Source: Cyanidiococcus yangmingshanensis
Lineage: Eukaryota; Rhodophyta; Bangiophyceae; Cyanidiales; Cyanidiaceae
Length of the DNA: 64,000 nt
Direction: 5' to 3'
Assembly: GCA_013995675.1 (NCBI GenBank)
Contig: VWRR01000020.1
Coordinates: 186,001-250,000, forward strand
The translations under genes were made by a program, and so were the position numbers. Positions 3,963-63,384 of the stretch are shown here, piece by piece (the first letter of the stretch is position 1; the number at the start of each line of letters is the position of its first letter). Under the pieces are notes generated by a model. It was not told the origin of the DNA. It made no database searches and saw only the letters and a program-made list of their open reading frames with translations.

Positions 3963-6309
3963 ATGCGTACACTTCATAGGCCAGTGTCTGGCGCTGCTTT
4001 CGTTTCAGGTTGCAACTTGTTGCAGCGAAATATTCGAGCAAATCCCGGGTTTCGTTGCAATCAACTGCAGAGAAACTCGTTCGTTGGACGGACCATGTTT
4101 GTCCCGAGTCGTGCAGTTGCATCAGTTGCCCCGAGACTTGTTTTCAGTGAGTTTTCGTTACGAATGAGCGCTGTAGACACCGCGGAGACCTATGAGTTTC
4201 AAGCAGAAGTCTCTCGAGTTATGGATATAATCGTGAATTCGCTGTACTCAAACACGGACATATTCCTACGCGAGCTTGTTTCAAATGCCTCGGATGCGTG
4301 CGACAAGAAACGTTTTCTGAAACTGACTGCCAAAACAGGTAGCGAAGGTTCGCTTTCAGACACGGAAGAGCTCGCCATCCGCGTCAGGTGCGACGACAAA
4401 AATCGGACCATAACGATTATAGACAATGGAATAGGAATGACCAAGTCGGAACTCATCAATAACCTCGGTAAGATCGCAGCTTCGGGCACATCTAAGTTTG
4501 TAGAGGCCCTGAAGGACGGTGCTGCAGATTTGAGTCTGATTGGCCGCTTTGGAGTGGGCTTCTATTCTGCATTCCTTGTGGCGGATCGGGTGACGGTTCT
4601 TACCAAGTCTCCGAATGACCAGAAGGCGTGGCGCTGGGAGTCAGAGCAAACCAAGAATTTCACCGTTACGGAGGAGCCGGACGCTTCAACGTTCTTGCCG
4701 GAGAACGCTTCGAGTGGCACCTCAGTGACTTTGCACGTCAAGGAAGGCATGGAAAAGTATCTCAATGACTATAAGCTTCGTCAGCTGCTTGAGCTCTACT
4801 CAGAGTTCGTATCCTTCCCGATCTACCTGTGGATGAGCAAAATCGAGTACGACAAGGTCAAAGAGAAAGACGAAAAGACCGGAGAAGAAAAGGAAAAGAG
4901 CGTTCCACGAACAACGTACGAATGGGAACTGGTGAATAAGACCAAGCCCATTTGGATGCGCAAACCCTCCGAAGTCACAGATGATGAATACAATGAGTTC
5001 TACAAGTCGATCAGCCGTGATTTTGAGAATCCTTTGACCCGCACGCATTTTTCAGCTGAGGGAGAGGTTGAGTTTCGCTCTATCCTGTATACCCCTCGGC
5101 GCCTTCCATTTGAGCTGGCCCAGAACATGTTTAGCGATGCAGCGCGCCCCCTCAAGCTGTACGTGAAGCGAGTCTTTATATCCGACAAGTTCGATGAACT
5201 TATTCCGCGTTGGCTAGCCTTTATTCGGGGCGTGGTTGACAGCGAAGATTTGCCATTGAATGTTTCGCGCGAAATTCTGCAGCAGAGCAAAGTTGCTCGC
5301 GTCATCGGGCGCCGTGTTACTCGCAAAGCGATCGATATGTTTCGGGAGATTGCCGAACGCAGCGACCCGAAAGATTACGAGGGATTTTGGGAGAATTTCG
5401 GTCGATATCTGAAAGTCGGTGCGTTTGAAGACGAGGAGTGGTCCAAAGACCTGCGGCCGCTGCTCCGTTTCCACTCATCAAAGAGCGGGAGAGAAATGGG
5501 TAAGTTTCGACGAGTACATCGGACGGATGAAAGAGTCGCAGAGCAAACGCATTTTTTACCTAGCCGCAGATAACCGTTTAGCAGCGATGAATTCTCCTTT
5601 ACTGGAGCGACTCAGAAAGAAAGACTACGAGGTTATCTTCTTACTGGAGCCTGTTGACGAATTAGTATTCCAACAAATGAACGGCAAATATGGAGATGGT
5701 TACACTCTTGTGGACGTTGCGAAGGCGGATCTCGAGTTGGACTCGGAGAAGGACGAAAAGACGGACGAAAGCAGCGAGCACCCTGCGCTCTCTGAAGCAG
5801 AGCTTGAGCCCCTGTGTAAGTGGATTGGCGAGCTTTTCGCCGAAAGTGTCGAAAAAGTGAAGATTTCGAAACGGCTGACGGACTCGCCAATGGCGATCTC
5901 ACAGGGTACCTATGGGGTGTCGCCTACTTTGGAACGATTCATGCGCACCCAGGCAGCTATGCTGAAGGAAGAGATTCCTCCTGGATTCCAGCAGAAAAAG
6001 ATCATTGAATTGAACCCGGCTCATCCAATCATCCATCAGTTGACCGCGCAGATAAGAGACACCGGCAATGCCGACAAGGAAGCAGCAACTTTGCTTTATG
6101 AGACCGCCCTATTGCAGAGTGGTTATGGTATCAGTGATTTCGGAGGTTTCGCTCAGCGCGTGAACAAGTACCTACACAGTTCATTGTCAGCTAGTGCCGG
6201 AACGAGCAGTCCAGGGAACAGGATAGACGCGAATGGGGGCTCGACAAGTGCTAGTGCCACACCTGAGCCCGTTGAGGCGGAGGTCGTGAGCGACGCCAGT
6301 AATTCATAA
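3963..6309 (+). CDS. plastid-type HSP90 (HSP90C), one frame break
   Basis: This is an ATP-dependent chaperone, probably in the plastid stroma. From the ATG at 3963 there is a roughly 65-residue serine/arginine-rich, transit-peptide-like leader. The GHKL ATPase domain follows, with YEFQAEVSRVMDIIVNSLYS, FLRELVSNASDA, DNGIGMT, GRFGVGFYSAF and GTSVTLHVKEG. The middle domain contains FENPLTRTHFSAEGEVEFR and the C-terminal dimerisation region contains DSPMAISQGTYGVSPTLERFMR. The EVSRVMDIIVNSLYS wording matches plastid HSP90 rather than cytosolic or ER forms, and there is no MEEVD or KDEL end. The reading frame changes once: frame 1 ends at 5573, and the conserved VSFDEYIGRMKE segment is read in the +1 frame, which runs to 6309. 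Ignoring one G of the GGG at 5498-5500 joins SKSGREM to VSFDEYIG exactly. The joined length is about 781 residues, matching plastid HSP90s of about 780. The break is probably an assembly indel. Confidence 0.88.
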
Positions 6310-7199
6310 AGGCAGAACAGTGTAGCCATTCTGAGCGACGACTCAAGCTTAGCAATGCTGTTTATAAATTTGGGTGTCTTTGAGGAAAACATGACGGCAT
6401 CTATGATCTGAAGTCCAGGAACCACAATCCCCCGCTCTTGAAGCCTTTGTCTTGCTGCTGGCTGCAAGAATGTGAGTCAGATAATCAGGCTTGCGTGAGA
6501 ATCGCTTGAGCTATTCCGTGGGCAGAAAGAATCATTGTTGTACAGTTCGTCTCTGGGCGCTGCACGCTGTGTTCACGAAATCACTCCATTGAGACTGAAT
6601 GAATATCACACAAAGCGGCCACCACGACTAGACTGGCCACGAATATTTCCTGCCAATCTTTTCCTATTCCAGAAAAATCCCTGATCAATGGACGCAATTC
6701 AGAGAGAAAAGGATGAATATTTATCAGAGAACTGGACGCAATCGAACAATCTGCTCTCGGTGGAAAGATCTGACGACGCTCTCCATACCGCGCGGAGCTC
6801 AGGCCCCAAGACTCTGTGACGACATACTAGGATCCAGCTTTCCCTGTTGTTAGCAAACTGACTCGGGTTTTCGCTTGATGATCTCTATGATCTATTGAAG
6901 AAAGGGTTGGAAACACTCTAGTGCAACCTCTGTAGTGCCCAGGTTTTATGCGCCGCTCGTTGCGCCCCAGCATGTATTTCGTTTCGTAGAGAACCTGTCG
7001 AGTTGAATCCTTGGTGTGGCGCACAGATGTTTCCGGGCTGCCGAAGGAGTTAAGTTTGTATATGAGTGAACGTGAGACAAGTGAATCTAATTCTCTAGAA
7101 AAGAGAAGTCATCGATTTCAACTTCGAGAAGCTCTGGCAACCCGTAGCCGAAGCACCGAAAGGAGCGAGCGTGAAGCCGACACTTCCGCGAGACAGGTT
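6310..7199. other. intergenic between convergent HSP90 and CAP-G2
   Basis: About 890 bases lie between the stop codons of two convergent genes, so this should be 3' UTR and terminator sequence for both. No ORF here has protein-like composition and no repeat or RNA gene was recognised. Confidence 0.4.
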
Positions 7200-10100
7200 T
7201 CAACTGTCGCTAGTTTCTCGACGCTGAGGCCGCCAATGTGCAGCGCAAGCGCACAGGACCTGTAAACGGGTAACAACCTCGCACGGATTGGAAACGATAA
7301 GTTTTGCTCGGCAGGGATCCTTGAGTTCGAGCAATATCTCAGCAACGGCGTCAGCAGCAAGAGTAACAACCTCCTGTGAGCACTGTTCCAGACATGGGTA
7401 GAGCAAGTTGCGGTTTCGCTCGAACAGAACTTTGAGAGTGCTTCCATAGCGGGGGACCTCCCAGATCGATTCGAGAGGCACCACAGTACCATGGTCGCAC
7501 TCGGCCGTGTACTGTTCTCGAAGCACGTTGATCCAGCGGGGAATGAGAATGGTGATGAACAAATACCTTCGCTTCACGAATAATTGCCGCAGCAAACGCA
7601 GTATTGACCTTCTCATCAGCATCTGTTCTCCATTCAAGTTTTCTGCGGGGTTTTCTGGGGAGACATGGGTTTCAGACAAGAACCCTCTATCGACAACATC
7701 CATTACGAGGTTGACGACACCTCTGAGAAGTTCCTCTGTTGCAAAGCCTGCGCTGATATTCGGATCGTGATTGCCGCGGCAATGCAATAAATACCATGCG
7801 ATTCGACATGAGAAGATTGCCGATGAATCTCTTAAAAATTCTAACAAGTGAGCTGTAAACGTTTCATCCAATACCCCTGCCTGCATAGAACAGAGCGTGA
7901 TGGCCTCACTAATGTAGGCAGCTCCTTGCTCTCTCAACAGAGGCAGCGCATGATCGTCGGTAACACTGGACAGGGCCCACCTATATGTATCCAACAGAAC
8001 CCGAACTGTCTCGGAGCCAACGTGATACGTACCGGCACAAGATTCCAGGTTATGCGCATCCATTCCATGACATTTTGGCCTGATCTTACTCAATGCGGAG
8101 TCTTCCATCAGGCCGATGAAAAGTAGCACGCGCGCCAATAGATCCGCAGCAGCGACCCGCACTGGATCGCGGATGCTTTCGTTCGCATCCAAGAAACGTG
8201 TGAGCAATGTCTGCAACGCTCGGCAACTGCGCATTGCACGGCTATCCCCTGCTATACTACGGCCCAGTGCAGGCTGGAAAAAAATCCACTCACACAGTGT
8301 GGCGATAGAGCTCATGCACGAAACGCATTCCTCTGAATCGATTTGTGCCTCCAAAAGCTCAGATAATCGTTGGCATACAATACGAGATCCGAGTAGTTCG
8401 GCGCTGTGACCCCATCGAACGAGTGCCTCCACAGCGGGGATGACACGATCACATGGCGCCCGCGACCGCAGTGCTTCTGACACACTTCTAAGGCAATCCT
8501 CGGAGAGGTCATCAACCAGGGGTCTCGGCACAGAAGAAAGAAGCTTCCACAAGTGCGTCACTGCCTTGCTCTCGATCATGTCACTATGAAGAGCTCCGGA
8601 CTCTGCAGCTGGAAGTGCATCGACCAAAGCGAAAAGGTATGCACTGGGAGCAGTCTCTCCAAATAGCTCCGACAATCCTCGTTTTCGCCATTGTACACGA
8701 CGGGGGCTATCCCTCTGTAGGTATCGCAGAGGATCACGAAAAGTGGCGCTGCGAGCTCTCTCGCATAAGTCACCCCTGCATCAGATTCGATCGGCTCTCC
8801 GGATTCATCCCGGAAATCTTCATCGAGCTCGACCAACCCGTTTCCCAAGATAACGATGAATTTGCAGATAGATCGCAAGCAGGGAACTCGTAGAGATGGA
8901 AACTTCGAAGCCCATAATGGGAGGTGCGTTGAGAGTGATCCCAGAGAAGCGTAGAAATTCGAAGCAGCCTCAGCATGAACACGAACAAATTCCAAGCAGC
9001 GAGCCAGGACGCCTGCATAGCGCGGAGGATCCAATTCTCCATCCAAGTCCGCATCCAAGCCCGAGAAGAAGCTTGGGAGGAGTAGGCATGTCAGACGACC
9101 ATCCATTGTATCACCAGCAGCCAAGTAAGGCAGCAAATCCTCTTGCAGGGAGACGACATCGTACCAACGGAGGTCAGGTGCCCTACTCACAGCCAAGACC
9201 AGTTCGGCTGCGGCATGCCGGACATTGCGATTTCGGTCATGCAAACAGGGTCGAAGGCGAGCGAGGATCCCTGCTCGCAGCGTTGGATGGGCCAGCGTTT
9301 GTGTCTCCAGGAGGCCGCGGATACTCTTGCAGACGCTTTCTCGAACCGCTGATGAGCACATATCGAACGCGAGCTCACCAGTGAGGAGTTGCAGAAGCTG
9401 CGTTCTCATGACTGGAGGGAAAAGTTCCCAAAACACGCTCAGAAGACGGCATGTCCCTTCAACTGATATCTTTCGAACCTTCGGCGAGCTATCCAGGAGC
9501 ATACGCGGAAGCAAGGAAAACTGGCGAGCGAGCTGTGTATCAATATCTTCTGTGGCTTCAGCTTCTTCAATGGCGTTTGCTGAGAGGGCAGTTGGATCCC
9601 CATCATGTTCCGCATCAATGTTTTGAGGTCCTGAGGCTCGCGTGTTCGGTGACGTCGATGACCCGTCCTCCCGGAGAATAGGAAAGGCCTCGAAAAAGAG
9701 ATGGCATGCGTTGCGTCTGACAGCAGGGTTTGTAGATCGCAACATCGCGCGATAAATGATTGGTTCATAACAGCATGCGAGCGCATGGTCAACTCCGGGC
9801 AAACGTTTCTGAGCATGAAATGCTGTGAGGATTCGCCGACAGATACGCACCAGTCGCGGCGAGGTCGTTAGAATGCTTTTTTCTGCAAAATCTTGCAGAC
9901 AGACTCGCTCAAAGTGCAGCTTGCTACGAATATAAATCTCGCCCTCTTTGGCGGCAGCATTTGCAATACACCATGCTCGGAAATACATCTCAGCGTAGTG
10001 CTGCATGATTCGCTTGCCCTGCAAATGGAAAATGAGCCTCTCTTTGAAACTAGTATGAAGCGCGTCCGTCAAACTTTCAGAAACGACTCCGCTTAGGCAT

Positions 10101-11317
10101 AAGGCAAGCCACTTGCGTCCATATACATTCTGGACTACGAATAGGTCCTCGAAGGCGGAAACAAAATCTGATATGAGAGACGTCTCCGATGGTTCCGTAA
10201 GGCAGCAGCCCTGGTCTTCACCATCGATCTCCGAAAGGCTGCCAGTTGTCTGGTCTACCGGCAGACAGAAAAAAGCATGACGCACCTCGTAGAGACGCCG
10301 CAGAGCGTCTTCGCGGAGACTTGCGTGCCTCAGACGCCATGTGCGGCCATTGCCAGAGCCTTGATTGTGTGTTTCCATAACAGCGAGTTCCTTATCCGCT
10401 ACGACTGCTGGTGGGATATCGATATCCCCATACTTCCCGAGTGCAAGGTGCAGCAGAAATATTATCATGTGTGGCGCGATTAGGTGGCGGTCTACCCAGT
10501 TGTGCTTCCAAAACGATTCGCACATTTCTGCAATGGAATCCTGGATCACAAGCACTTCAGCTAAGCCGAGATCTCCTGAGTCTCTCGCACCCATCGTTTC
10601 ACCAACTGGGTCTGTTTCAGCGAGCGCGGGTATTGACTCATGATAGGGCGCCTCGTGCGAGACGAGTTCATGCGGATCAGGCATACGTTGAACTTTCGCA
10701 GAAACCGGCTTCGTTTCTTTAGCATATGGAAGCTCATTCTCATACTCTAATTCTCCGGAGGCGTTGGAAGCGGTCAGCTTGGGAAGAACAAGCATCAAAT
10801 CGTGGAGTATCTGTACTGTCTGAAGCAGGGCAGGGGGCGTGTCCGTGCCATTCCCGTTCAGTTCAGCACACACGCCCAAAAGTGCAGTCGACAAGTGAGC
10901 TATCGCACCGAGACAGAGCACGGAAGTTGCTCGTAACCTTTTCATGTTTTGATGGTCTTCGTCTTCGACACTATACAAGCAAGTACAGGCATCAGCGAGG
11001 GCGTCAAGTAAACACTCGCAAACAGCGTCAAAGCCCCGGTTGGCAGCCAGTTTCCTCAAAGTCTCCGCGCTGAGGCTAGGAGGCAGCTCGACCATCCGTC
11101 CGACAGCATCAATTAGGCGTCTCATTTGGGAGATAGCCGTTCGGTTGTCCTTAGAGGGCGTTTCTTCCCTGTTCGAGAATAGTGCCTCGTCGAGGAGACT
11201 CAGGAAAAATCTGGATTCCTCAAGCGTGTGGGCACCCTTATCTGGGTCCGGCCAACAAGAGCTCTTACTGGACTCAGACGACACATGTCTATTATCGATA
11301 CACAGGTTTCTACTCAT
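7200..11317 (-). CDS. condensin II subunit CAP-G2 (NCAPG2-like), one frame break
   Basis: This is the HEAT-repeat subunit of condensin II, which compacts mitotic chromosomes in the nucleus. It starts at the first in-frame ATG (11317). The diagnostic block in the middle reads LLDSSPKVRKISVEGTCRLL, then FWELFPPVMRTQLLQLLTGE, then a segment ending LHDRNRNVRHAAAELVLAV. This follows the NCAPG2 order of paired HEAT repeats closely. The first frame runs to 8576; the remaining 490 codons (helical, leucine-rich) continue in another frame down to 7200. The switch lies between about 8795 and 8675, where both frames are open. Unlike the other breaks in this window, one base appears to be missing; C/G runs at about 8772-8775 and 8701-8705 are candidates. 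The joined product is about 1,372 residues, which fits plant and algal CAP-G2. Family assignment is firm; the exact junction is not. Confidence 0.83.
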
Positions 11318-13276
11318 GGACACAAGAACTGTTTCCAAAACCCCTCAAAGAGTTCAGAAGGCTAGCGTACTGGGTCACAAGCCTGAGGGCGCCTTTCTGC
11401 GGCGCCGCAAACGCGGCTGACCCGATTCCACTCGCCGTTTCAAATTCCCCTGGATGGTGCTGCCTGGCGCCCCTTGCAAAGGTCACCCCCACATTCATCA
11501 CGAGAACTTGCGCATATTTGCTCTGTTGTTGCAGCATCACAAGTTCCAATATAGATACCTTCTGATGATGAAAGCTTTGATGGTTCGATTGATGATTGAC
11601 CTTTCTGGCTTGATGACGATGGCCTTTGGGAGGCGCCTCGAAGTTAACGACTGGGATCGGAGAGTCACTCGAAGTGCTCCCGATCCCGCATCGCCACACT
11701 GATTGTAGTGCGGCAGAGGCCAAAGCAAGCTACGTAAGCAACTTCAGTCCGCTTCGCAGTATAATGTCCTTTTGTGGACTCGGATGGCGCAGACCATCCT
11801 GCTGAAGAACTGATGCATAGAAGAGCAAGCAGGGAATCGCGAGCAGTGAACAGGAAAACTTGTTCAGACGCAGGAGTGATCAAATCATGGTTCCTGCGGG
11901 AGGGCCACCGCTGGGAACAGCAGTCTGCCTCTTTGGTTTGTACTAAGCTTGTAGGGTCGCGATTACACATGAGGACATGCGTGGCGACATGCTGGGAAAT
12001 TTTGAGGTTATCCGCTTTCGAAAGTCCCAGGAGCCGAGTCAGTCTGGAGGCAGACAGGTTATTTTCTGCAGAGTTTCCGCTGGGGGGTTTCTCTTAGATT
12101 CTGAACATATCTCCGGGAGCAGTGCACTCTTAGATGTGATATTCCAAACATATTCATCACTTTCTGTATTCTGGAGGCTCCTGGACAGTTTTTGGAAGAG
12201 CGACCTCGAGCTTTTGCATCACCAAACAAATGGATATTTCATTCTACAAGTACGTCTCTGTGATTAGAGGTATTATTCAAAAGCCTCCTAAAATTCAAAG
12301 CCTCGTACACGTTTGTCATCGCCAAGAATCTCATCCAGACTTAAGCCAGGCACGTGTTAGGGTAGAGCGCTTGCTTTCTTGCTCGAGCTAGTTGAACTTG
12401 TGTTGTCCCCGAACATGCTATTCCTCCGAATTCTGCCTCATCGTCAGCTAAAAAGTTCGAGTAGAATCAGATACCTTTTCCTTCAGCGCAATTTAGCACC
12501 TCTGTGAAAGTCTCGTTCCAGCGAAAGACATGAATGCGCCTTGAGCCCAGCGAACAGACAGGCGCAGATACATAGCTCGCAAATATCTCAAGAGACGAAT
12601 ATCGATTCTCGGATGTGTCGCCGAAACGCTCCACATTTTATTCCAGTATCCACATTCAGCTAGTAGCGGAGCGCCTGTGCAAAGCGTCCCTCTAATTCTG
12701 CGGATATTTAGATAAGTGTCGAACTATCTGCCCCGCAAAGCTCCAGTGATTCTAGTCTACGCTTCCTGTCGTGCATCCGCACATCACCGCTGCGTAGCGA
12801 AGATAAAACGCTGTTTGAGACGATCTGTATATGTTTGCATCGCTTTCGAATCATATCCTCATACCTGATTGACGGAGACGATGCGGATTCTGTTACTGAC
12901 GCAATTACAGCTGCGAAAATCTACAGCGTTGCTCTACGAACCCCCGCTCTAAAGCTATCTATAAAAAGAAAAAGGAGTGACCATAGAAATCATCTTTCGT
13001 ACCAGTGGATTAAAAGGCTATGATCTGAATTTCAGAACATGTGCTTTCCGCTTGAATGAGCCTTTACACTTTATGGAATACGTCGGCTGGAACAGTGCGC
13101 ATCGTTCTAATCTTTTTGACTGGATGCTATTCGGTTCGCAAACCGCGTCAATGGCCGCGATGTCCCAGGGGCTACATCCGACCTCCGAACAACTCTATCG
13201 CTGTTCAAGCTTTCATCCCTGTTCGTCGACTCGTGCGAGCTCTCCCATCAAACTTGAGAGAGGGAACGAGAGCGCC
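11318..13276. other. intergenic between divergent genes, no gene recognised
   Basis: This 1.96 kb region separates CAP-G2 (minus) from NDUFA8 (plus), so it should contain two promoters. Open frames such as 11977-12267 plus and 11310-11723 minus lack conserved features. The NDUFA8 frame is open upstream to 12977, but without protein-like content before the ATG at 13277. No tRNA-like T-arm, repeat or mobile element was recognised. Confidence 0.35.
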
Positions 13277-13648
13277 ATGACCGATTCTAGACAGAATCAT
13301 GGGTTAGGCGGACCAAAGACAGCCACAAGCTCAGCGGTGCTGTACGCAGCAGCGAAAGAAATTGGTACCCAGTGCCGGGAACAGAATCGAAGCTTTCTCC
13401 AGTGTAAAGCAACGGAGCCGGACCCTGCAAACTGCCTAGACAAGGGGCGCTCCGTTCAAAGATGTGTCCTGGAGCTTTTGATGAGTTTGAACGCAACGTG
13501 CCCAAGCCAGTTCGAGGCTTACGCTCGGTGCCTCGGTGAGCAGAGTGCAGCCTCGTACGCATTCGAGCGCTGCCGCCGACTGGAGACAGCACTGGTCGAG
13601 TGTCGTCAGGCCCAGAGTAGTCAGCGGTCTCGTCCAGACTCTGAGTGA
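13277..13648 (+). CDS. mitochondrial complex I subunit NDUFA8 (twin CX9C)
   Basis: This encodes a 123-residue accessory subunit of NADH:ubiquinone oxidoreductase in the mitochondrial intermembrane space. Four perfect CX9C motifs are visible: CREQNRSFLQC, CLDKGRSVQRC, CPSQFEAYARC and CRRLETALVEC. This double twin-CX9C layout is the NDUFA8/PGIV arrangement, and the preceding SSAVLYAAAKEIGTQC matches the family's N-terminal word pattern. Such proteins are imported through the MIA40 disulfide relay and carry no cleavable presequence, consistent with the short N-terminus. The ATG at 13277 gives the expected family length; the open frame continues upstream but with no conserved content. Confidence 0.9.
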   Translation: MTDSRQNHGLGGPKTATSSAVLYAAAKEIGTQCREQNRSFLQCKATEPDPANCLDKGRSVQRCVLELLMSLNATCPSQFEAYARCLGEQSAASYAFERCRRLETALVECRQAQSSQRSRPDSE

Positions 13649-19313: not shown

Positions 19314-22300
19314 ATGTCGGCTGTGCCTGCCTTTCGAGTGATTTTCAGCGGGGAGACAACGGTTCGTAGTATGGAGGCACTGCGAGCCTATCTCCGAGAA
19401 CGCAGGCGAGTCGCTTTGTACAGTGGCTTAGATCAAATGGGATCAAGCTCTGAATCTACTCAGAGAATAGAGGCACCAGCCTCGGACGTGGATGAAAAAC
19501 AGGGGAACGTTCTTCCGGAGCCGTCGCTCACCTCGGACAGACTGGGGTTGGAAACGTATCGACAGGGCGATTTCCAAGCTCCAGAGACCAAAGACCAACT
19601 TCTAACTAGCTCGTGTTCTTTTTATCCAAATAACAGCGAGAATAATGCCTTGCGAGCTGGACAGGTGAAATCTGCTGCCGTCTATGTGGGACAGCCTAGA
19701 CTGGAGGCGCCTTTCACAGCCCATCAGAGGTGCAGTCTGCCTGAGGGCGACCAGACTAGTGTCTCAGCTTCAAACGCAAACAGTCATGATCAGACATTTG
19801 GAAAATTTTCAAAGCATGGACGGGAGGATCGAGCCGACGACAAGGAGTTGTGGCTCATTTCGGAGCAACCGGCAGCTGAGATTGCACTGCAATCGTGCAC
19901 GGTAAAGTTCTCACAGTCGCAGGAGTCGAGTAATCCTGTAGATCGAACGGAGGCCAAGTCGGAGCCGTCATCGGAAGCAACTGTTACTGAAGCACCAACC
20001 ATTGATGTGGAATGGGTTTGTGACCGCCAAACGAATGCAACGGGCACACGGCTCAGTCGCAACTCATGTGACCAGCTGGCCGCAATAACGAGGGATGCAA
20101 ATCGCATCCTTGCGCAGGAACCACCAACGCGTTTAGCAGACACTCGGAGAACGATGGCGCTGCCCACTGATGAGAGTGACTCTGAGATGGAGATTTACGA
20201 ATCAATCCTTGGAGCAAATCGTCTTTACACATTTTCTATTCCAAAACGCGCTCGCATTCGTTGCGTAGGGACGCCTGACACAGATGAGATATGTTGCACA
20301 TTAGATGCAAACGACCCAAAAGGCTCAGAAAAAGAGAATGTTTGCCAACTGCTGGCTCCAGCTGCACTGAATTCAGATGCCAGCGAAGATTCGTACCATA
20401 ACAAAGATCGAGTTTCAAGCGGAGGGTCGGATGAAACTCACGCACTCCGAGCATCTACCGCTCGCCGAGAAGATGCACCATTGAAGTCAGATCTCCATAC
20501 TCCGCCGGCGCAACAACCCGAGATTGTCGTGACGCCCAACCCACATGCCAAGTTTTCGGAAGCATCATCCTGCATCTCGCCCGTGACCGCCCCCAAAAGA
20601 CATACAGGGAAGAGAAACACGATATCAACTGAAACAGAGCCCGATGTTGGCGTCTCAATCAGGCATTCAGAGCTCGCAGCGAGCCGGACTGACAAGAGCT
20701 CATCACTGCCCAGTGATCTTGACCCGGAGACGGCAAAGGAGATGTGCTTCGAGAAGCTCAACCGCGAGTTCCCGCAACCAAAGCAGGTTGCTCTGTTGAC
20801 TAACACCGAATCAATGCATCCAACAGCGAGTCGTAGCTGTGGCGAAACATGGGGCAGCACCCTGCCGCGCGAGCTCATGCTAAAAAAGAGGCTTGTCGCT
20901 GTCGAACGACTGGTTCGATTAGAGGATGAGTTTCTGGAAAGCGCTGACGCGGAGAACATGGAGCGCCTCCACCACCTCATTGAGCGAACGAAATCTATCA
21001 TACAGAATATTGATCGGAGCCTCGGGGCCCAACCCCAGGTGGTGCGTGCACCAACCCGTGCACCCCAAGGCAGTGCTCAGCCGCCGGGAACAAGCATGCC
21101 TGCGAATCCAGGAGAAGGGACAAATGGCACCTCTGAGGGCGCTCATGATGCAGACAAAAGGCAGCATCATATCTTCTCTCAGAGCGAGTATGAATTGCTG
21201 AAGAGTACAGCTGCGGGAATTGACACCGCTTTCGATGCAAACGGCAACTCGCACTCAGAGCAGTCCCTAGGGTATGTCGTTTCACCGAACGTTGCGTCTG
21301 AAAGCGTGACGCTAACTGCTGCAAATGTAAGCACTTCTGGGCCCTTGGACAATGATGATTTCGAGGCACTGATTGCAGCCGCTGCGGAAGAACCTGGATA
21401 TGAGTCGCCCGTCTGTTCAGCAGAAACATTTGTCGGCTGGGCCTGCGGGACCCGATTCGGGGGATCTCGCCCCTGTCAATGAACTGGAAAACACCGATGC
21501 AGTGGACCTGGACGAAGCATTCGAGCTGGCTTGTGCGCGGGCGTCCGCTGAATTCGCCGGTGACGGGTACCCCTGGTCGGAGCAATTACATCGCAATAAC
21601 CGCGTCCAGTTCGGAAATGAAGGGTTTCGAACGAACCAAAAGGAGGCAATTAATGCGGCCATGAGCGGAAGGGATGTGTTTGTGCTCATGCCAACCGGTG
21701 GCGGCAAGTCACTCGTCTATCAGCTAGCAGCAACGCTTACGGAAGCCTCTCGAGCTAGTGTCACGATCGTCGTTTCGCCTTTGAAATCGCTGATAATGGA
21801 CCAAGTCACCCGTTTGCAGTCGTTGCAAATACCGTGTGGTGCACTATGTGGAGCCACTTCAGAGAGTGAGTCGCGGGAGCTTATCAGAGATCTGAGGAGC
21901 CTGAATCCCAGGACGCGAATCCTCTATGTCACCCCAGAGAAAATAAGCCTGTCTGGATCGTTCCAGTCCATACTCGACTGGCTCGCTTCGCGTGGGCTCC
22001 TGGCCCGTTTCGTTATCGATGAAGCCCACTGCGTGAGTCAATGGGGTCACGACTTTCGCCCGGACTACAAGCGGTTAAGCCTGTGCAAGCAACGTTATCC
22101 TAACGTACCTCTCATGGCACTGACGGCGACGGCGACACGAGAAGTCCGGGAAGACGTGAAAGTTCAGTTAGGCATCCCTCAATGTGTAACCTTCAAGCAA
22201 AGTTTTAATCGCCCGAATATATCATATGAGGTTTACATGAAGGGTGCGCGTTCGAAGACGGTCCAGTGGATCGCCGATTTCATTCATCGAGAAATGCCTC

Positions 22301-31580: not shown

Positions 31581-31825
31581 TCGCCGCCCTTTGGATGGCA
31601 AGCACCCAACTCGTCGAGGCCGCCATTTTGGTTTTGCATAAAGCACTGGTCGTTGACCGTTACCACTTGGTTGATCGACAAGTCCGTCGAGTACACAAGG
31701 TCCTTGGTTTCCTCGGCGTTGCAGAAAACCACGAAGAGGTCTCGAGTCGGCCGCGGCTGAAGAGACGCCCACTGCTGAGCGACCATGCAAGGCCAGTTGG
31801 GCGTAGCAGTGTCGATTTCGGCCAC
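31577..31825 (-). CDS. short ORF overlapping the DUF3326 start (ATGA)
   Basis: This 82-codon minus-strand frame ends at a TGA at 31577-31579. That TGA overlaps the DUF3326 ATG as ATGA. Its composition is protein-like (DLFVVFCNAEETKDLVYSTD, then CFMQNQNGGLDELGACHP), unlike the arginine-rich frame that extends DUF3326 upstream. It starts at a non-ATG codon and a stop lies just upstream. It could be the 3' part of another gene, the true N-terminal exon of DUF3326 displaced by an indel, or chance. I do not recognise it. Confidence 0.3.
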   Translation of the reverse strand: MAEIDTATPNWPCMVAQQWASLQPRPTRDLFVVFCNAEETKDLVYSTDLSINQVVTVNDQCFMQNQNGGLDELGACHPKGGE

Positions 31826-44832: not shown

Positions 44833-46744
44833 TCATCGCGTGGACGTTGATGATGTCGTTACGCTGGCGATCTGGAGACACGACCGACTAGAGAGCCGTT
44901 CCTTATGAGTACGTGCCGGGTGTCTTTCGCGTGCAATGGCCTCAATGTCCGCGACTTGCAGCGGAATAGACGACGAGAGTACTTCGGCTTCGGCGCCGCT
45001 CGCGCGAATCACCACATCGTCCTCGATCCGCATGCCAAGGCCACGGAACCCTGCTGGTGCGTCAGGATCCTCAGCTGGGACGTAGATCCCAGGGCTCGAC
45101 GGTAATCACCATACCTGCTTGGAAAGGGATCGATTTGCTCAGTTGATGCGTGTCATGTGTGTCCATGCCCAAATAATGTCCTAGTGCGTGAGGGAAATAG
45201 CGGGTGTAGAGGCCACGTTGAATGATTTCTTCGACAGTATACTTGCGTTGGAAAAATCCGAATTCGAACAGGCCCTCTGCAATCAGGCGGACGCTGACCC
45301 GCTGAAGGTACTCGAGACTCTTGGATTCCTCCGCGTTTCGGTTCGGCTCATCCGAGGTCGCAGCAGAGGGCTTGCTTTCGCGGGCCATATCCACACAAGA
45401 TCGGTGAACGCTCAGGAGCCATTCATAGAGGGTCTTGGCTGCGTCGTCGAAACGGCCATCGGTCGGCCACGTGCGGGACACATCACTGCAATAGCCGTGC
45501 AGTTCGACGCCGGCATCGACCATGATCAACTGCTGGTTCTGTAACAACGCCGCATTGTCGATGTAATGTAGAGTGCAGGCACGCGGCCCTGATGCCGCCA
45601 CAATGGGAAACGCGAGTCGCGCATTCGGGCCGCCTCGCGAGTGCATGGTATATGCGATCCGAGCGGCAACTTGCCACTCTCCAAGTCCCGGCTGTGTCAT
45701 CTGCATGGCATCCAGAAAGGCATCTGTCGTCACAGCTGCAGCTCGGCGCATCAGCGATAGCTCATTCGGTGACTTGAAGAGTCGCAGTGGCTGAACCAGT
45801 GGCACGGGCGAATGCAGCTGCGAGATGAAGGCATGCCATGCCGCAGGCAACGACTCGGTCGTTTTGCTTGGTGCAAGAGCGTTGCAGAGACGTTGAGCAA
45901 TCTCTGGGTTCACTCGAGCGTCGAAAAACAGCATGGGTGCCGTCCCTGATTCAGCATGAACGAGTTCTGCCACCACCCGGCCGATGCTATCAATCGGACG
46001 CACGTCCGCAATGCCAAACATGGCAGAGGCGTCCTCAAGACCGATCATGGGACCGTCCCAGAGCTCCCGTGCAGCATCCCTCGGTCGCATGAAAAGCAGA
46101 AACGTTGTCCGTTTCGTTGGCGACGGGGTGTGCTTGCCATCTGTTTGACTCGTCGTTGTGTGCTCGCTCGAGCTGGAATTGTAGACGACCAAGGCAGCGT
46201 TTGGTTCCATGCAGCCAGTAAAATAGAGGAAATCCGTATGTTGACGGAATCTATGCGGCACATCCATTGAGTAAAACTGTTCTGTCGCGGCTGGCAGGAT
46301 CAAGAGCGAGTGAGGTGGCATCAACTCCGCGAGTGCAGATCGTCGAGCGAGGTACTCGACCAGGGGGATCCCCGGAGTAACCTGGTCGACACTCATCAGA
46401 TGCGGGTGAGTGTGACCAGTCGCCTGCGAGAGCCGTCTCGTTAGGCGAGCTCTTTGCTCTTGTATGAGCAGGTGCTCCCGTTCGTGCTCTGGTGAAGCCC
46501 TTGTTGTGCTCGTGCTCCCAAGTCGGCACGGATTTCCTCGAGGACCAACTTGTCGCGGGGTGTTCGAGCCCACAAGTGCAAGTCGCGAGGAACAACGCCC
46601 ATGGAGACGGAGTACGTCTCTCGTTCCGCAGCCTGTGGGTGCTGCTCCGAGAGCGGTCCAGAGGTGGCGTTGCCTGGTCCAGCAACCGAGTCGCTGTGAA
46701 GCTGCTATTGAAGACCGAAACGCTCTCGACAAGATCTCCTCCAT
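44833..46744 (-). CDS. Xaa-Pro aminopeptidase (aminopeptidase P, XPNPEP3/Icp55-like), one frame break
   Basis: This is a metallopeptidase that removes an N-terminal residue before proline, or trims imported mitochondrial proteins as Icp55 does. The ATG at 46744 opens an Arg/Ser-rich leader of about 70 residues typical of mitochondrial import. HPHLMSVDQVTPGIPLVEYL and FRQHTDFLYFTGCMEPNAAL are the N-terminal AMP_N domain. The pita-bread domain has LTLHYIDN-like CTLHYIDNAALLQNQQLIMV, then DAGVELHGYCSDVSRTWPTD (metal ligands in DAG and SDVSRT). FPHALGHYLGMDTHDTHQLS follows, then AGMVITVEP. The frame then breaks: GIYVP and, later, GMRIEDDVVI (last metal ligand E) lie in the next frame, which stops at 44833. 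Ignoring one base of the GGG at 45092-45094 (plus strand) restores VEPGIYVPAEDPDAPAGFRG. The joined length is about 636 residues. Confidence 0.9.
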
Positions 46745-47151
46745 TTTGCTCTGCCTCTTTTTTCTATTTTCACAACGCGCTATCGACTGGAATCACTCCT
46801 GAAACCGACCCAAGAAACGAAGCGTTCGCAGTCACAACGCCCTTGCGAGTGCAACGACGACCCAGTCGTTTCCTCACCCTCGTTCTTGATGAAGGGCCCT
46901 GATCCTGCAGGTCGCGTACGATACCGTCGCACAGAGTTCCGAAAAAGCCTCACCAGGTCGCTACTCGAAATCGTGCAACGCTGATCATACGTTGAGAAGG
47001 GACGAGTGGTTCAGACGGCTGGATGCCCAGCAGCGACTCGCCGGGGCAATGACCAGCGCTTTTACTCTCGCTGCCGTTCACATTTCGTTGTCGCAGGACG
47101 GTTTTCTCGCTCACGTCAGTAGTGACCACTTGGGATACCAAACTAGGTTCG
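46745..47151. other. divergent promoter region / leader
   Basis: About 400 bases lie between the aminopeptidase P gene (minus) and the DUF3598 gene (plus). A plus-strand frame from the ATG at 47049 (MTSAFTLAAVHISLSQDGF) resembles a transit peptide and is one frame away from the DUF3598 frame. It may therefore be the true N-terminus (see next entry). Confidence 0.35.
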
Positions 47152-49906: not shown

Positions 49907-52616
49907 ATGGAAGTGAAATCAGGCTTGACGGTGCATCAAAGCGTGCCTCTACGACTAGAACGAGTCTCGAATCCCCAGAGACGGAAGAAGGGCTTGCTCT
50001 CGGCGTTGTTTGCGAGCTCGCTCGGGAGACGTGGACTGTGTGTCGTCTCAACCCGAGGTGCGGTTCGTTCCTCAGCGCCGTTTCTTTCCAATGGTGCTGC
50101 AGTGTTGGTCCGATCAGTCGATGCGAACGATACAAGTGAAGCACTGGCGGTTGCGTGCGCTCAGTTAAGGATCGACGATAGTGTTCCAGAGCGGACTTTG
50201 TCGCATTCCAGTAAACGCTTGGTTTCGAGTCTGGTCTGGTTCGACGAAAAGGTCGCCCCAGACTCGGTGGTTGTCGATGACGAGACGTATCGCCTACTGG
50301 GTGCTCCATCTATGGAAGAAGCAAAGAAAAAACCTCCCATGGCGCGGCTGGTCTATTTGGATACGCTCGGTGAGAAGCCAGAGTCGAGCGAAACGTTGAA
50401 TAACGAGTTTCCCCCAGCGGCTTGTGCCATGCGATGCAGCCTCGATGATGACACCAAGTCCCTCTTGGGGCGAATACAAGGACCAGAAATCGATGCAGAG
50501 GAGGAACTGTATCAGCATATACGTTGGTCGGCTGCTGGACGTCTGCTCTGCGTGGGTGCTTGTCTCGTTGGGGTCCCCTTTCTGGGCCTGCGCCTGAACT
50601 TGTGGATAACAGATGCATCGCTCTCTACTGGAATTTCACCATCATCATTGCCAGCGGCAGCAAAAGAAATGCGTCTGGGACCTAGAGGTAGCCATGTTTT
50701 CGTGCTCGGAGCCCAAACGCGCATCGTGGTGAGGGAGACATCCACACATCTGACGTTATCAGGGAGCGCTACAGGACCTCACGAGCAGGATGGGGTACCT
50801 CACAAACGAGTGTCTGAATCATCGTCCTCAGGACTGGGACCGTGCTTATGCCAACGCTATCAGCTGGGATGTGGTGGCAGGCCACTCGTCAGCAAAAACT
50901 GCACTGCTTCAGGTGGCTCGAGAGACCCTGAACGCACAGGAAATTTGCCCGTCAAAGAGCATTCAAGGAGTCATCCTGAGTGGTCCCAGTGGAAGCGGCA
51001 AATCGAGCTTGGGTCGAGCGCTCGCAGCCAAGCTGCAAGCACATCTCGAATATGTGCCTTGTGCAACGTTGCTGGGCTCGAGCATTCGCAAGCTCCAACA
51101 CGCCCTGGGTGATGTCGTGGAAGCCGCAATTATGGAGGCACCAAGCGTCCTCCTGTTCGATGATCTCGATGCGTTGCTCACCGATCGGATCGACACACAA
51201 ACCGAGGAGGATTCTGAACGCGTCCGAGCAGCCATGTTGACGTTCTTCACGAAACTAAGCCGAAGAGGAGCAGCGGTAAGCCATTTGAACGTCAGCGGCA
51301 TTGCAACAGTTTTGGTGATTGCCACTACTCGGCAGCGTCGTATCGTGGATGATGTGCTGGGAGCTAGCGGGTTTTTCGATAGAGAAATTGCCCTGGAAAT
51401 GCCGAACACCGCGGAGCGACTCGCTGTGCTGGAGACGCTGGTCACGGCCACGGACCCGTCGAGTCAGTCGGTACTCACTACGGTTGCCGAGCAGACGCGT
51501 GGCTTTTCTCCAGCCGATCTGACTGCGCTCTGGCGACGGGCCACACTCGCTGCCTATGAACGGCAACGTATCCAGTCATCAGTGAACGAAACTTCCAGCG
51601 AGCCTGTTCTTTCGCAACCAGAACTCAGCTGCATGGACTGGCGAGAAGCGCTCGCGATTGTGCGTCCGAGTTCGTTACCGGACTGGACCCTGGAGAGACC
51701 TCGTACTCGCTGGTCAGATATCGGTGGCCAGGAGCAGGCGAAAAGGATCCTGATGGAGACGCTGGTCCTGATGCAGCAGCATACAGCCGAGCTGGAACGC
51801 CTCGGCTTTCGGGTTCCACGAGGCATTCTGCTCTATGGGCCGCCAGGTTGCAGCAAAACCTTACTTGCTCGTGCTGCGGCTGCAGAAAGTGGTCTACTAA
51901 TGCTCATGGTCCGAGGCCCCGAACTATTTAACAAATACGTTGGCGAGAGCGAAAAGGCGGTGCAGCGCGTTTTCCAGCGGGCTCGAGCCGCTGCGCCCTC
52001 GCTGCTCTTCTTCGATGAAATTGATGCACTGGCCACGAATCGATCCCGAACCTCATCGGATGGAGCCGCAGGCGCCGAAGAACGTGTACTTGCACAGCTC
52101 TTGACGGAGTTGGATGGGGTTGAACCACTCCGAGATGTTGTTGTCGTTGCGGCAACCAATCGGCCGGATCTTCTGGATGCAGCCCTACTCCGTCCGGGCC
52201 GTTTCGACCGGCTGGTCTATGTCGGCTTACCCGATACCAATGAGAGACGAAATATTCTACGCATTCACCTCCGAAACGTTCCGTTGGCGGCGTCGTGTTC
52301 CAGGGACCAGACCAATGTCTCGCCAGAGGCTGAAACGCTGAAGGATGGGTTAGAGAGCGCGTGCTCTTCGGACTCAGCTTTCCGCGAAACTCTGTATGCA
52401 CGACTCGCTGCCGCCACCCAAGGTTTTACTGGAGCCGAAATCGCTGCCTGTGTTCGAGAAGCGTGCTTGCTTGCCATGGAGCAAGATCCTGCCGGAGCTG
52501 CTTGGGTCTATCCGCAGCACTTGGAAGCGGCATTGCAGCGCGTCCGGCCAAGGACCGATGCGAGCCTCTTGCGGCTGTACAAGCAGTTTGGGGCAAGTTT
52601 GCGAACGTGTCCGTAA
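49907..52616 (+). CDS. AFG2/SPATA5-type double AAA+ ATPase, one frame break
   Basis: This is a tandem AAA+ ATPase of the Cdc48 superfamily; Afg2/SPATA5 releases factors from pre-60S ribosomal particles. The ATG at 49907 opens a roughly 290-residue N-domain. The first ATPase module has GVILSGPSGSGKSSLGRALA and Walker B LLFDDLDALL. The second has WSDIGGQEQAKRILMETLVL, GPPGCSKTLLARAAA, RGPELFNKYVGESEKAVQRV and LLFFDEIDALA. ATNRPDLLDAALLRPGRFDR follows. The Walker A variant GPPGCSKT is a hallmark of AFG2/CIP111. Walker B of the first module is DDLD rather than DEID, hinting at weak hydrolysis there (inference). The frame shifts between about 50760 and 50860: the N-terminal frame continues as non-family sequence to 51112. 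Ignoring one G of the GGGG at 50792-50795 joins the parts into about 902 residues, the SPATA5 length. Confidence 0.88.
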
Positions 52617-54829: not shown

Positions 54830-55097
54830 CGAAGAAAAACAAGTTGATGTGGTTGAGAAGGAGCCTCTGAAACCAATGAAGTAACGCCTGCTTCCTCTCT
54901 ATACTGATCGTTCCGCGTTGTGTCCGTCAGAGCGATATGGTCACCGGACCAGACGCCAAGCGGACTGGTGTCTGCGGCTCGGCACCGCCCCGCCCGTCGA
55001 GTGTGCTTTTCGCAGGAGCGCTTCTGTCCCAGAGAGGGGTTGCTCGCGACAATGCGTCGAGTAGTTGCTCGTTTTGAATCAGGTAGTTTGTAGTCTG

Positions 55098-57229
55098 ATG
55101 AGATCCAAACGATCCAAGCGATCGCACCAGCGAGAGCTGGGACGTAAAGCGGTTTCGTTTTCGGGAGCAAACGGCGACGGTGAGACAGTGCCAGCGGCTG
55201 GTCTTCTCGCTCCGAGAAGTAGCGATGCGCGTTCCTCGCTTGGCCACTGGTGGATGAGTGTCTGGAAAACACTCTGGAAAGATATACGAATGGATCGCTC
55301 TCACGAGAGTCTATGGCGTGAACTGCAGCTCCTGCTTAAGATCGCTCACGAGGAGCGTCTGTGGGAGTGCATCTCCGTCGACGCTTGGTATGCAGGCTGC
55401 TGACTGGCTATCGCTTTTGGAGCACCTGTTTCGATCCTCGAAACCAGTTCCGCGGGCCGTTTACGCTGCGTTGAGTTCTTGGTTCTTTTACAGAGCAAAC
55501 ACGGCGTCTGTAGGTGATCGGGACCCGTGGAGTGCCCTCTGCCAAATGTTGGTCCATCAAGCGAGTACAAACAATGACGCTCTGACGCCGCTGCTTGCAT
55601 ACGTTGCCGCAGGGATGGACCGCAGAAGATGAGTCCTGGTTGCGAAAGGAGCTCGATGAGCGCACTTGGGCACTTTTGATAGCAGATGAGACCGAAATGC
55701 GTGGTCGCGAGCTTGCGATGACCGGCCAACTACTTCTGGCGAAGGGTTGTCTCCAGCTTACTCTAGAGCGGGCCCTGGAATCGGTTCATCAGCTGGAAAA
55801 AGAGGCCGCCACTTGGGTCTTTGGTGCATCTAATGAGCGTGAGGGTCATACAATGTTGACCAAGGGACCTCTGCAGACGACAGAGACCCTTATCGACAAA
55901 CATCGGGCACTCTGTACGCTGATCGTGCGCTTGCTTCGCGATTCGACCGTTGCATCAACAGGTCCGCTACGATTGCCTGTCCAGCTGTTCACCTTTCAGT
56001 CCATCACTTGGAACCAGATTGATTTCTATGGAGAGGCGTTGGACTCGTCTCCGATACCGCCGATGCTCTGGCTTCATGTCCTGCCGTCGTGGCATCGCGA
56101 TATCCTACAGGTTTGGGATGCCTGTATCAAGCGTTTTGGAATAGCAACGTTGCCAGTCGTGACAAAGTGGCTAGACCAGGCGGTACGTAGCGGTCCGTGT
56201 AACACGATGCTTCACAGGCTGTTGTGGCGAGCGTGTCGAACTGTCGGCATTGCAGCTGCATCGTCCGTTGAGCGTTGTCTCCGAGCACACTTGGATGAGG
56301 CGATGTCGGATGGAGGTTTTGATCAAGGTGCGGATATCGCCTGGCTTGAACTCATGACCAGTGCATATCAGTCGCCGGCAGCGTGGTCTCTCATGGAATC
56401 AGGTATGACGGGACTAGTGACGGAAAAGCTTGCTCGCCTCTTTGTATTCGGCGAGTGCGCTGTAGAGAAGCGCACGCGTATTGCCCAAGTGATCGCTGCA
56501 GTTTCCTATGCGGCCCGCGACGCACACGCCCTCGAATGGCTAGCACGACATATTGAACACGACGAGAGCATTCGTAATGTCCTTGGGCCTCTTCTGGAAG
56601 CGCTCGCCCATCCGCGAGGATTCGCCTTGGAGTGTTTCACGCCGTCTGATGCCGCTCGCTCGGGACGCAAGTCCGATTTGGAGTACAGACCATCGCTGAA
56701 TCGTCCGAGTCATGAGATATCCGCGACCATGATGAATTGCTCGAACTGCGAACCGATGACCACCAAGACGCCAGGCCACTTGGTTGCAGATCCAGATGAT
56801 CGACCAATGGCTACTGATGACGCAGCTCACGTGAGCGATCCATGTCGGCAGGGCGTGGACGCAAATGCAGGTGCAGTGGGGGAGCCTCGGGCCCTGCACC
56901 ATCACTCGCCAGTCGAAGCGCTGGCTTCCGTGGAATACACGCCATACCAATCGGATCGAATACCAGCAAGCGTTTCAACGGGCCCAAAACCGCCTCTGTG
57001 GACGCCAACCCTGCAACCAAATAGCGCACCGCTGACGAACCCAGACACTGCATGTGTATCCGCGGAGTGGCCTGAGCAGCGTCGAGTATCGGTCGATGAT
57101 GCGTCGGAAGCATCCGTTGAGGCGCTTCTTGACCAGGTCCTCGAGGTGACCCCGTCACCGGAGCCTATCGAGCATCCATCAGGCAGCGAATTCGATCCTC
57201 AAACGAGAACGATGGATGGAAATGAATGA
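55098..57229 (+). CDS. large helical protein of unknown function, two frame breaks
   Basis: Three frames in succession encode one plausible protein of about 709 residues. The first (ATG 55098 to 55403) ends near ERLWECISVDAWY. The second carries ADWLSLLEHLFRSSKPVPRA to 55632. The third (to 57229) begins GWTAEDESWLRKELDERTWA and continues as leucine-rich helices up to about 56640, then a disordered acidic, Pro/Ser-rich tail. The switches lie at about 55370-55403 and at the GGG of 55612-55614; each is resolved by ignoring one base. The helical part looks like ARM/HEAT-type repeats. A weak resemblance to Rix1/PELP1-like ribosome-biogenesis scaffolds is possible, but I do not claim it. No catalytic motif or membrane segment is visible. 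Confidence 0.6.
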
Positions 57230-58572: not shown

Positions 58573-60709
58573 ATGCAGCATGAAATCGTGGCAGCGTGCC
58601 GAGTCCCATTTGCATTCTTTATGACAGTATTGTCGCAAGTGTTTCTTCGGATGCTTCTACTGCTGGATTGCCGTTCTCTTCCGAGAGACCAAGGACTGCC
58701 GTTGTCATCACGAGTGCCGACTTGGTTTGAACGTAAAAACATCGTTTGGCCGCGCTCAGTGTGTCAGGAATCTATCTTAGTTTCAGTTGCTGGACTTTTC
58801 TTGAGCGGCTTTGAGGTCTGCGCGCTGGTCACGGACGGTGGCGGCCCGCAGCGAGAGGTCTCGGTGTGGGCATGGCGCTCGCCACCGGCCTCGATCGTCC
58901 TCTGGCAGGCGCTGGACTCGGATTTTCAAGTACGTCTTTCATCTTGGTTCAGTTCCAAAGACGGGCGTATTCTCAGAGGTATAGATACTCGTTTTCATGC
59001 ACGTTTGAGGTTCATTTTTGGCGCAGGTACCGGCGAAGGTATGTCTCGTTGGATTTTGCGTCGATGAAGATGACGAGCTTGCGAGGGCAATGCCCTTCCG
59101 GCGAAAGCCATTTTCAAACGTTTCAAAACCCAAAATATGCCTCGATCGCTGTTTTGCGTAATGATCAGGTACGAAACAGACCCAGTGGTCGCATCTGGAC
59201 GCCACAATACCTGCAGGGGCACTATCCGCGGTCTGCTCAGCGGTATGTTGCTGTGCTGCCGGTATTGGAGCCACTGCAGCGATGGCGTCTTGATCCATTG
59301 CTTTCGTTAGCTTTTTTGGGATTGGTTTGTTTGAATCTTTTGATTTGGTTCTGGAGAAGAATCGCTTTGATTAGACGGATAGAGGACACAGACGACCTCC
59401 GACTGGATACCAAGTTGCATTCAGTCTCATTGGGCGTAGGCGAACGACAGACCGGTGTCTGGAAAACACCTGGAGTCGATGAGCTGCGGCGCTCTATAGC
59501 GCGCCCTGAGCAACTCGATTCCAGGGTGACGGCTCAAAGCCAAGCAACGAGCGATCCCCTGACTTCAAACTGTATTCCAAACGTTGGGTTTGGAGAAACG
59601 GTGCGCCAACTCAGCAAGCGACTTCGAGACCTGGAGAAGCTGGTTGCTGAAAAGGAGGCACAGCAGGCGGCACTTGAGCGTGAACGACGCGAGCTAGAAC
59701 AAGTGCATTTGGCAACGAAAGCACAACTTCAGGCCTGTCAGCAACAGCTCACCCAGTTGAAACAGGTGCACAAGCAACAGGTGAAGGAATGGAATGAAAA
59801 ATGGGCTGTCTATCATGCAGAGACAGCTGATCAGGTTCAGCGGTTGAAGACTCAAGCCAGAGAGCGTTTTGCAGTCTCTACGATCACAGCTACAAACGAT
59901 GACGGAACAGGCCAAACGATGGCAAGCACGGGCTCAGGCGCTCTCTGCTCAGCTGGAGACGTTGCGCTCGGATCTAGAAACCGTTTCTCAACAGGAGCAG
60001 AAGCTTCGAGAAGAAGACTCGGAGCGCTCGCAACGATACAGTGCTCTGTTGCGTACCTGGAAAGAATTGCGCGCAGAATGTGAACAGAAGCAAAGTGTGT
60101 TAGATGCGCGAACGTTAGCGCTTGACAATGAACGGAAAGCGAGAATGCGTTTACAGCGTCAAAACGCACAGCTTCGACAGCAAATCCAGGCCTGGATAGA
60201 ACACTACCAGACGCAGGAGGCAGCGTCGGTTTCACCGATCGATTCCGAGGCAAAACCGACCCCAGTGAGTGAATCCGCTCCAGAGTCATCGACAGAGCCT
60301 GGAGAAGTTGCCGACATGGAACCAGGACCGACTGTACCTGAGCATGTTGCTTCGTCTGTTACGAAAACTGCATGGGACGATCTCGAGTCGCAAACGACGT
60401 ATCCAGCTCGATCAAGTGGATCACGTTCTAGAGGTGGGATTCTTTCGACAAGAGTTTGGAAACGCAGGGACCGAGGATGCAGCAAGAACGGCTCACGGCG
60501 CTCACAAGGACTCTGGAGCAATGACTGAAACGGACCGAACTGCGGCCACGACAGCAACAGGTACTGCTGCCAAAACAGCACATCCAACGACAACCGTTGG
60601 GCCGGCGCCATCTCCGACAAGCGAGAAGCAAACCGAGCAAGCGTCCGGCACTGATCTTTACCAGAGCAACAACAATCGTGGTACGAGCGATAACCATGAC
60701 CATCCCTAG
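58573..60709 (+). CDS. membrane-anchored coiled-coil protein, several frame breaks
   Basis: Pieces in successive frames suggest one protein of about 700 residues. The first (from about 58573 to 59067) has hydrophobic segments, including LVSVAGLFLSGFEVCALVTD, perhaps a signal peptide. The next has VCLVGFCVDEDDELAR-like sequence near 59040-59150. The third has a membrane helix, LSLAFLGLVCLNLLIWFWRR (about 59295-59360), then a heptad-rich coiled coil with ETVRQLSKRLRDLEKLVAEK. The coil continues after a shift at the TTTT of 59869-59872: dropping one T joins QARER directly to LQSLRSQLQTMTEQAKRWQA. A further shift near 60420-60528 leads to a Thr/Ala/Ser-rich end at 60709. The layout of lumenal domain, one helix and long cytosolic coil suggests a tether or scaffold at the ER or nuclear envelope (inference). 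The start codon is uncertain and I do not recognise the family. Confidence 0.55.
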
Positions 60710-61993: not shown

Positions 61994-63384
61994 TCAGTTC
62001 ATCGAGTCCAAGGCCAGAGCCTGCAACGTGAGCGAGTATCCTGATCGAACCGAATCATGGCTACTCGTTCTAAAGATAAGATTTCGCCATCCTCGTGGTT
62101 CAGGTCTAGCTCGCCTGCTCGGCAGCTTCGAAGATGCTCTCACCGCGTGCTCACGGCGTTCGCCCTCCTCTAGGTCGCGATTCCAAGGACGCGGTAACCG
62201 AAGCAGTCTACGCAAGGACGCAGAATCGACAATATCCACAAACAAGTCCATTGAGCGATTGCCAAATACCAATCGGCTAAGGATCTGCTCCCACTCTGTG
62301 GTGCGAGGAGGCCATTGCGCCACTTTGGCGTGAGGCCAGGAGGAAGACTCTCCCACTGCCGTGACATGGTCGGACAAGCGGCTGTCGGGGCTCCTCTGCC
62401 GCATGGCCATCTCGCTTTGAGTGCTCGCTGGTGTCATTGCAGTCAGCAAGTCGGTGGTCCTAGACCATCCTGCATCTTGGACGGTGTCGCTATTCTGCTG
62501 GAGCGAGCTCATCTCAGCGACTGCTGCGATCAACGGCGCTCGATCAACAAGCGTACTTGAATCCATTCGGTGCTCATGGAGTTCATCGACGGTAGTCGTG
62601 CCGAGCGCCCCCGATACACTGATCACGGCACGTGCGTCTGCACCCTCACGACGATCATCGGTATCCTGTCTGTTCGTATCGGAACCAGTAGAGACGGCTG
62701 ACTGTTGCCGAGGAACTGTCGCGTCTCCCGGTGCAGACACTTTGACGACTTGCTTGGCCCCCGCGACAGCTCGTCCTTGTGAGGTAGCATCGCGCTGCAC
62801 CTCGGCGCCGTCTTTGGATGCCCCGTTCGAGTAACGTAGGCGCAGATACGGGTGTCGAGTGATACAGCGACCGCCCCAGAGCCATACTGGTCGATCAGCC
62901 GGCAGCGTAACTTCGCCTTTGAAGCTCTCTACGTACTGCGACTCGCTGAGTCGAATTTCGCCGCCTTTGACATATCGACAGAACTCCGAAAAGATCACGG
63001 AGAGATTCCAGTTTTGGAGCCGTCTCAAACACATGATCACAAGCCCAGTATTGTGACCGCCGTCTCGGCAGTGGATGAACAGAGGATGGTTCTGCACGTC
63101 CACAATACAGTGCAGGATCGTAGCAACTTTGCTACGCTGTCAACGTAGGAACATCCTCAAACTTTTCTGTCTGCCAGTGCCAAAGTCGAACTTGCTCGTT
63201 CCGACAAAAGTCACTCAGGTCTGCGGTCGGTGCCTTCCGCTGACAAGGTCACGATAGATCGCAGCTGAAGGCGCCGTAAAAAGCGCCAGTTCTTCAGCGT
63301 TGGGTATGCACCACGATAGAGGCCGTCTTCGACGATCCCAAACCGGAAAGGCGTCACCAACGCGGGCAGTTCCCAGTCCGGCAT
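61994..63384 (-). CDS. Siw14/OCA-family phosphatase-like protein, two frame breaks, catalytic Arg replaced
   Basis: This belongs to the plant/fungal atypical dual-specificity (Siw14/OCA, PFA-DSP) family; active members cleave inositol pyrophosphates. The ATG at 63384 begins MPDWELPALVTPFRFGIVED. GLYRGAYPTLKNWRFLRRLQ and LRSIVTLSAEG follow, which is the family's hallmark N-terminus. Next, in the following frame, come DLSDFCRNEQV and WHWQTEKFEDVP, and then in a third frame VDVQNHPLFIHCRDGGHNTG and GLVIMCLRRLQNWNLSVIFS. Two surplus bases (near 63210-63230 and 63145) explain the shifts. The signature loop reads HCRDGGHNTG where active enzymes have HCX5R; the arginine position is Asn, so this may be a pseudophosphatase like some yeast Oca proteins. 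An additional C-terminal region of about 230 residues is Ser/Thr/Asp-rich and ends in a basic stretch. Confidence 0.82.

Follow-up and report, generated by a model that had tools for sequence, protein, structure and literature searches.

Single-base insertions and deletions are a known hazard of long-read sequencing. In raw PacBio reads, insertions (8%) exceed deletions (3.2%) and substitutions (1.7%; PMC7671305), whereas false deletions predominate in a Nanopore assembly that has been examined in detail (PMC12007338). Frame changes may also be genuine. In Euplotes, an in-frame stop codon, mostly one that follows AAA, sets off a +1 shift (PMC10235951, PMC4759687), and in the mitochondria of Perkinsus, +1 and +2 switches occur at otherwise unused codons, in conserved positions (PMC9550989).

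Here I analysed a window of 64,000 nucleotides (the whole stretch of DNA presented above; 54% G+C, with genes that lack evident introns) by comparing the open frames of the two strands, the protein families matched by each of them, alignments to solved structures and the DNA at the switches. Protein-family homology and a coding-statistics HMM together place 13 single-base frame switches in nine genes, 12 of them surplus bases and one a missing base. The window's coding sequence suggests that these are, with high probability, leftover single-base insertion errors in an insufficiently corrected assembly rather than a real biological feature.

Frame switches in nine genes

The nine genes and the intervals to which their switches can be confined are as follows, each switch being a surplus base except in CAP-G2:

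3963..6309, + strand: HSP90 gene; one switch, within 5484-5497
7203..11344, - strand: CAP-G2 (condensin II) gene; one switch, a missing base near 8674, with 8578-8783 open in both frames
19314..24078, + strand: BLM/RecQ helicase gene; one switch, weakly localised to about 21373-21480
41246..44020, - strand: GH31 glycosidase; three switches: a within 43633-43690, b within 42441-42465 and c within 42203-42213
44833..46744, - strand: aminopeptidase P (ICP55/XPNPEP3-like); one switch, within 45089-45096
49907..52616, + strand: AFG2/CDC48-like AAA ATPase; one switch, near 50775-50810
55065..57229, + strand: helical protein; two switches, within 55340-55400 (helical 1) and 55598-55617
58815..60528, + strand: coiled-coil protein; one switch, within 59857-59876 (a TTTT run)
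61994..63489, - strand: Siw14-like phosphatase; two switches, within 63211-63243 (first) and 63130-63141 (second)

Homology pins several of these switches closely. The HSP90 profile of Pfam is matched up to position 272 in the first frame and from position 264 in the next, and scores 320 and 214 bits in the two frames versus 551 bits when read through (profile 2-494 of 518); the segments SKSG and EKWVSFDEY are separated by one base too many. The GH31 enzyme is MYORG/GH31 alpha-galactosidase-like (match to PDB 7qqf), and its comparison with MYORG yields 67 bits (7qqh/7qqf) and 113 bits in separate frames versus 236 bits read through (7qqf). Its switch c, where there is no homopolymer, was placed by aligning WSRRYTEMA with YTRHYVAMA. 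In aminopeptidase P, the M24 match of 134 bits to position 187 of 208 becomes one of 161 bits to position 207 of 208 upon reading through.

The Siw14-like protein has conserved sequence running through three successive frames. Its Y_phosphatase2 matches score 40 and 82 bits apart versus 148 bits read through, and the read-through version places 162 residues on profile positions 1-162 of 165 without a net gap, so two surplus bases are favoured over one missing base. A single -1 event was accordingly rejected, the middle frame holding a conserved stretch of its own. Just upstream, and in the same frame, lies a 167-codon open frame without a family match (63490-63993), which may be a separate gene, a chance occurrence or a broken N-terminal part.

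CAP-G2 has a Pfam Condensin2nSMC match (E 2e-30), and the HMM calls its missing base with 16 nats. In BLM, the DEAD, Helicase_C and RecQ_Zn_bind domains of Pfam all fall in the downstream frame, and the HMM scores both frames as coding. The coding signal of the basic C-terminal tail of BLM (23788-24078) is ambiguous between frames; it may hold additional indels, for which there is no support. The AAA domains of AFG2 likewise lie in the downstream frame, to which the HMM call joins the upstream coding frame. The helical protein matches no Pfam family across 55065..57229, and its two switches are supported by open frames and by the HMM at a mild penalty. Finally, coiled-coil sequence carries on across frames in the coiled-coil protein, and the TTTT run at which the first-pass annotation had set the switch (59869) indeed falls within the interval obtained here.

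Sense and position of the switches

The HMM is a three-phase, two-strand model with equal penalties for surplus and missing bases. A coding model of order 4 overfitted the training genes and so order 2 with re-estimation on the window was used. The starting counts were drawn from parts of this window that are clean, which means that the model is not independent of the sequence, and direction was not built in. At a penalty of -7, the HMM calls surplus bases at 5507, 21395, 43638, 42451, 42206, 45086, 50797 and 59851 and a missing base at 8674, while a milder penalty adds surplus bases at 55368 and 55620 (helical protein) and at 63226 and 63134 (Siw14). Of the single-base errors implanted in clean genes as a control, it recovered 143 of 150 insertions and 144 of 150 deletions, with a median offset of about 10 nt. 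Since insertions and deletions were found equally well, the 12:1 bias toward surplus bases (two-sided p=0.0034) is not a bias of the method.

In clean genes, the HMM makes calls at the extreme ends only, and for this reason weak calls at 23788, 23951, 46493, 60400 and elsewhere, all near gene ends or without homology, were set aside. The run at -7 also gave a missing base at 46494, in the N-terminus of aminopeptidase P, but a stricter penalty does not retain it and no homology supports it.

These results agree with the first-pass annotation, which had been made from the letters alone: every gene that it named as broken contains a frame switch, its estimate of at least twelve events in the +1 sense matches the 12 surplus bases, and CAP-G2, which it singled out as going the other way, holds the sole missing base. 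Its observation that the events cluster right of 41 kb also stands. Ten of the 13 lie there on 14.1 kb of coding DNA (0.71 per kb), and the 24.7 kb of coding DNA on the other side holds the remaining three (0.12 per kb); the associated p=0.0034 is optimistic because the split point was taken from that annotation, after the data were seen. The polymerase, MED15, DHS and kinase genes, reported as clean, are intact here, and the BFA1, S24e and TMEM14 genes are clean though they stand among the broken genes on the right. The broken genes are functionally unrelated, and the changes seen are indels only, at about 0.33 per coding kb (about 1 per 3 kb).

Long repeats, which might betray misassembly, were looked for, and the search returned only three short tandem duplications (44083-44250, 24501-24677 and 18778-18951), with units of 84-87 nt and 80-93% identity, outside recognised genes. 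No clean copy of the locus was found among viral contigs, genome contigs or plasmids, and a search of Rfam gave no matches. As to the host, the intact gene at 47053-48126 combines DUF3598 with BFA1, a domain of chloroplast ATP synthase biogenesis, and marks a plastid-bearing organism, as DUF3326 at 30321-32042 may likewise indicate. Taken with the lack of evident introns and the 54% G+C, these plastid-related families suggest that the window is nuclear DNA of an intron-poor eukaryote, probably a cyanidialean red alga. A small protein at 12965-13648, possibly mitochondrial, matches CHCH/Cx9C weakly, with a score under the Pfam cut-off.

Origin of the surplus bases

Insertion-type assembly error, the cause preferred in the first-pass annotation, is also the best supported here: the affected genes are unrelated, the changes are indels only and predominantly of one sense, they share no motif, they cluster, and the codons concerned are read as normal triplets elsewhere. 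If so, the organism's own genes would most likely be intact and read normally, the surplus bases would be absent from the real DNA, and a long-read technology with an excess of insertions would be their source. Read depth or polishing would presumably be poorer right of about 41 kb, where the density of errors is higher. Given the published insertion excess of PacBio and the false deletions of Nanopore, the sense of the events fits PacBio-like better than Nanopore-like data. Overcalls in pyrosequencing are another possible source of surplus bases. If about 0.33 indels per coding kb held genome-wide, a large part of all genes of average length would be broken, which I infer the cell could not afford unless they were specially read.

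Three points stand against assembly error: the sense of the events is more uniform than many error profiles give, one event is a missing base, and the switches are not placed in homopolymers more often than chance. On this last point, the first-pass annotation had many of the switches sitting in runs of 3-5 identical bases, and runs of at least three bases do occur in 10 of the 13 switch intervals (GH31 c and both Siw14 intervals have none), but random coding intervals of equal length have them about as often, and the argument from runs was dropped as evidence.

Recently decayed pseudogenes, or a contig that mixes strains with real indels, would be a very improbable source. Young pseudogenes do start from single-base indels, but the downstream frames here retain normal coding statistics and conserved residues, and decay would have had to strike core genes, HSP90 and AFG2 among them, all at the same time and in a single sense.

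Could the genes instead work as written, with the ribosome skipping one base by programmed or code-like frameshifting? That 12 of the 13 events have the same +1 sense speaks for it, as does a homotriplet codon (GGG, CCC or TTT) at several sites, which would permit a +1 slip, and an old-frame stop at or near the switch in one to six sites. However, the same quadruplets are read in-frame and unshifted elsewhere in the window (GGGA 21 times, GGGG 23, CCCT 18 and TTTG 50), as are most of the switch hexamers (GGGAGA once, GGGATG 3 times, CCCTGG twice and TTTGCA 5 times), and thus a fixed four-base reading is disfavoured. The codons themselves are in regular use, with GGG, CCC, TTT and GCG found in-frame 86, 82, 135 and 213 times in clean stretches. 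The known +1 motifs TAGGY, TCCCCT and CTTAGGC are absent from all 12 surplus intervals, as is AAA-TAA/TAG, in keeping with the earlier statement that no shift motif is shared.

The companion statement, that no stop codon lies at the switches, survives in part. HSP90, GH31 c, aminopeptidase P, AFG2 and the coiled-coil protein clearly shift without one, 16-300 nt before any old-frame stop. On the other hand, the second Siw14 switch falls on an old-frame TAG; no other pinned switch coincides with a stop codon, and one such case among thirteen events is not surprising; and the intervals of GH31 a and b, helical 1, the first Siw14 switch and BLM extend to an old-frame stop, such that a stop-triggered shift may be compatible with their localisation.

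Altered decoding is further opposed by the grouping of the events by DNA position and not by gene class, by the opposite sense of the CAP-G2 event, and by a literature search on programmed frameshifting with red algae or Cyanidioschyzon, in which none of the papers listed was relevant. It is therefore extremely unlikely that ribosomes skip bases in these genes, and I give just as little credence to the specific proposal that a plastid-bearing, probably red-algal nuclear genome tolerates frequent single surplus bases and reads through them by a +1 shift with neither a stop nor a fixed motif. Were the surplus bases real, nontriplet decoding would extend to one more nuclear lineage, where its mechanism would differ from the one in Euplotes.

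Small spliceosomal introns with a length of 3n+1 would yield a net +1 frame change, and GTAAGT occurs directly after the HSP90 switch. Such introns are scarcely probable given the 27-44 introns per genome in Cyanidiales (PMC9812998) and the long open frames of the remaining genes in the window, and they do not account for the homology-pinned sites, where read-through gives full-length collinear matches with nothing left over. In HSP90, aminopeptidase P and Siw14 and at GH31 c, the matched residues follow one another without any to spare, which is almost the case at GH31 b too, and no removable stretch was found between the protein segments at the first four, the alignments leaving one base.

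Returning to assembly error, gene models taken from this record are to be treated with caution as truncated or split, especially right of 41 kb, and the broken ones are not to be taken for pseudogenes or for evidence of frameshifting.

Comparison with known systems

The likeness to Euplotes is that a +1 shift is called for in many nuclear genes that are unrelated to one another. In contrast to Euplotes, at least five switches here occur without a stop and AAA-TAR is found in 0 of 12 surplus intervals; as the five sites shift well ahead of any stop, a rule of the Euplotes type is disfavoured. Perkinsus mitochondria resemble the window in having multiple +1 switches inside genes. Here, however, the genes are nuclear and the switch codons are in common use, and because the switch-site quadruplets and most hexamers serve as plain triplets elsewhere, an unused-codon rule of the Perkinsus type is disfavoured as well.

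Compared with long-read assembly errors (PMC12007338, PMC7671305), the present events differ in that an association with homopolymers could not be demonstrated, and the insertion excess seen here is stronger than in most reports on such errors. In other respects the likeness is close: as in those assemblies, single-base indels fall in unrelated genes and unevenly along the contig, and, as in PacBio raw reads (PMC7671305), it is insertions that are in excess.
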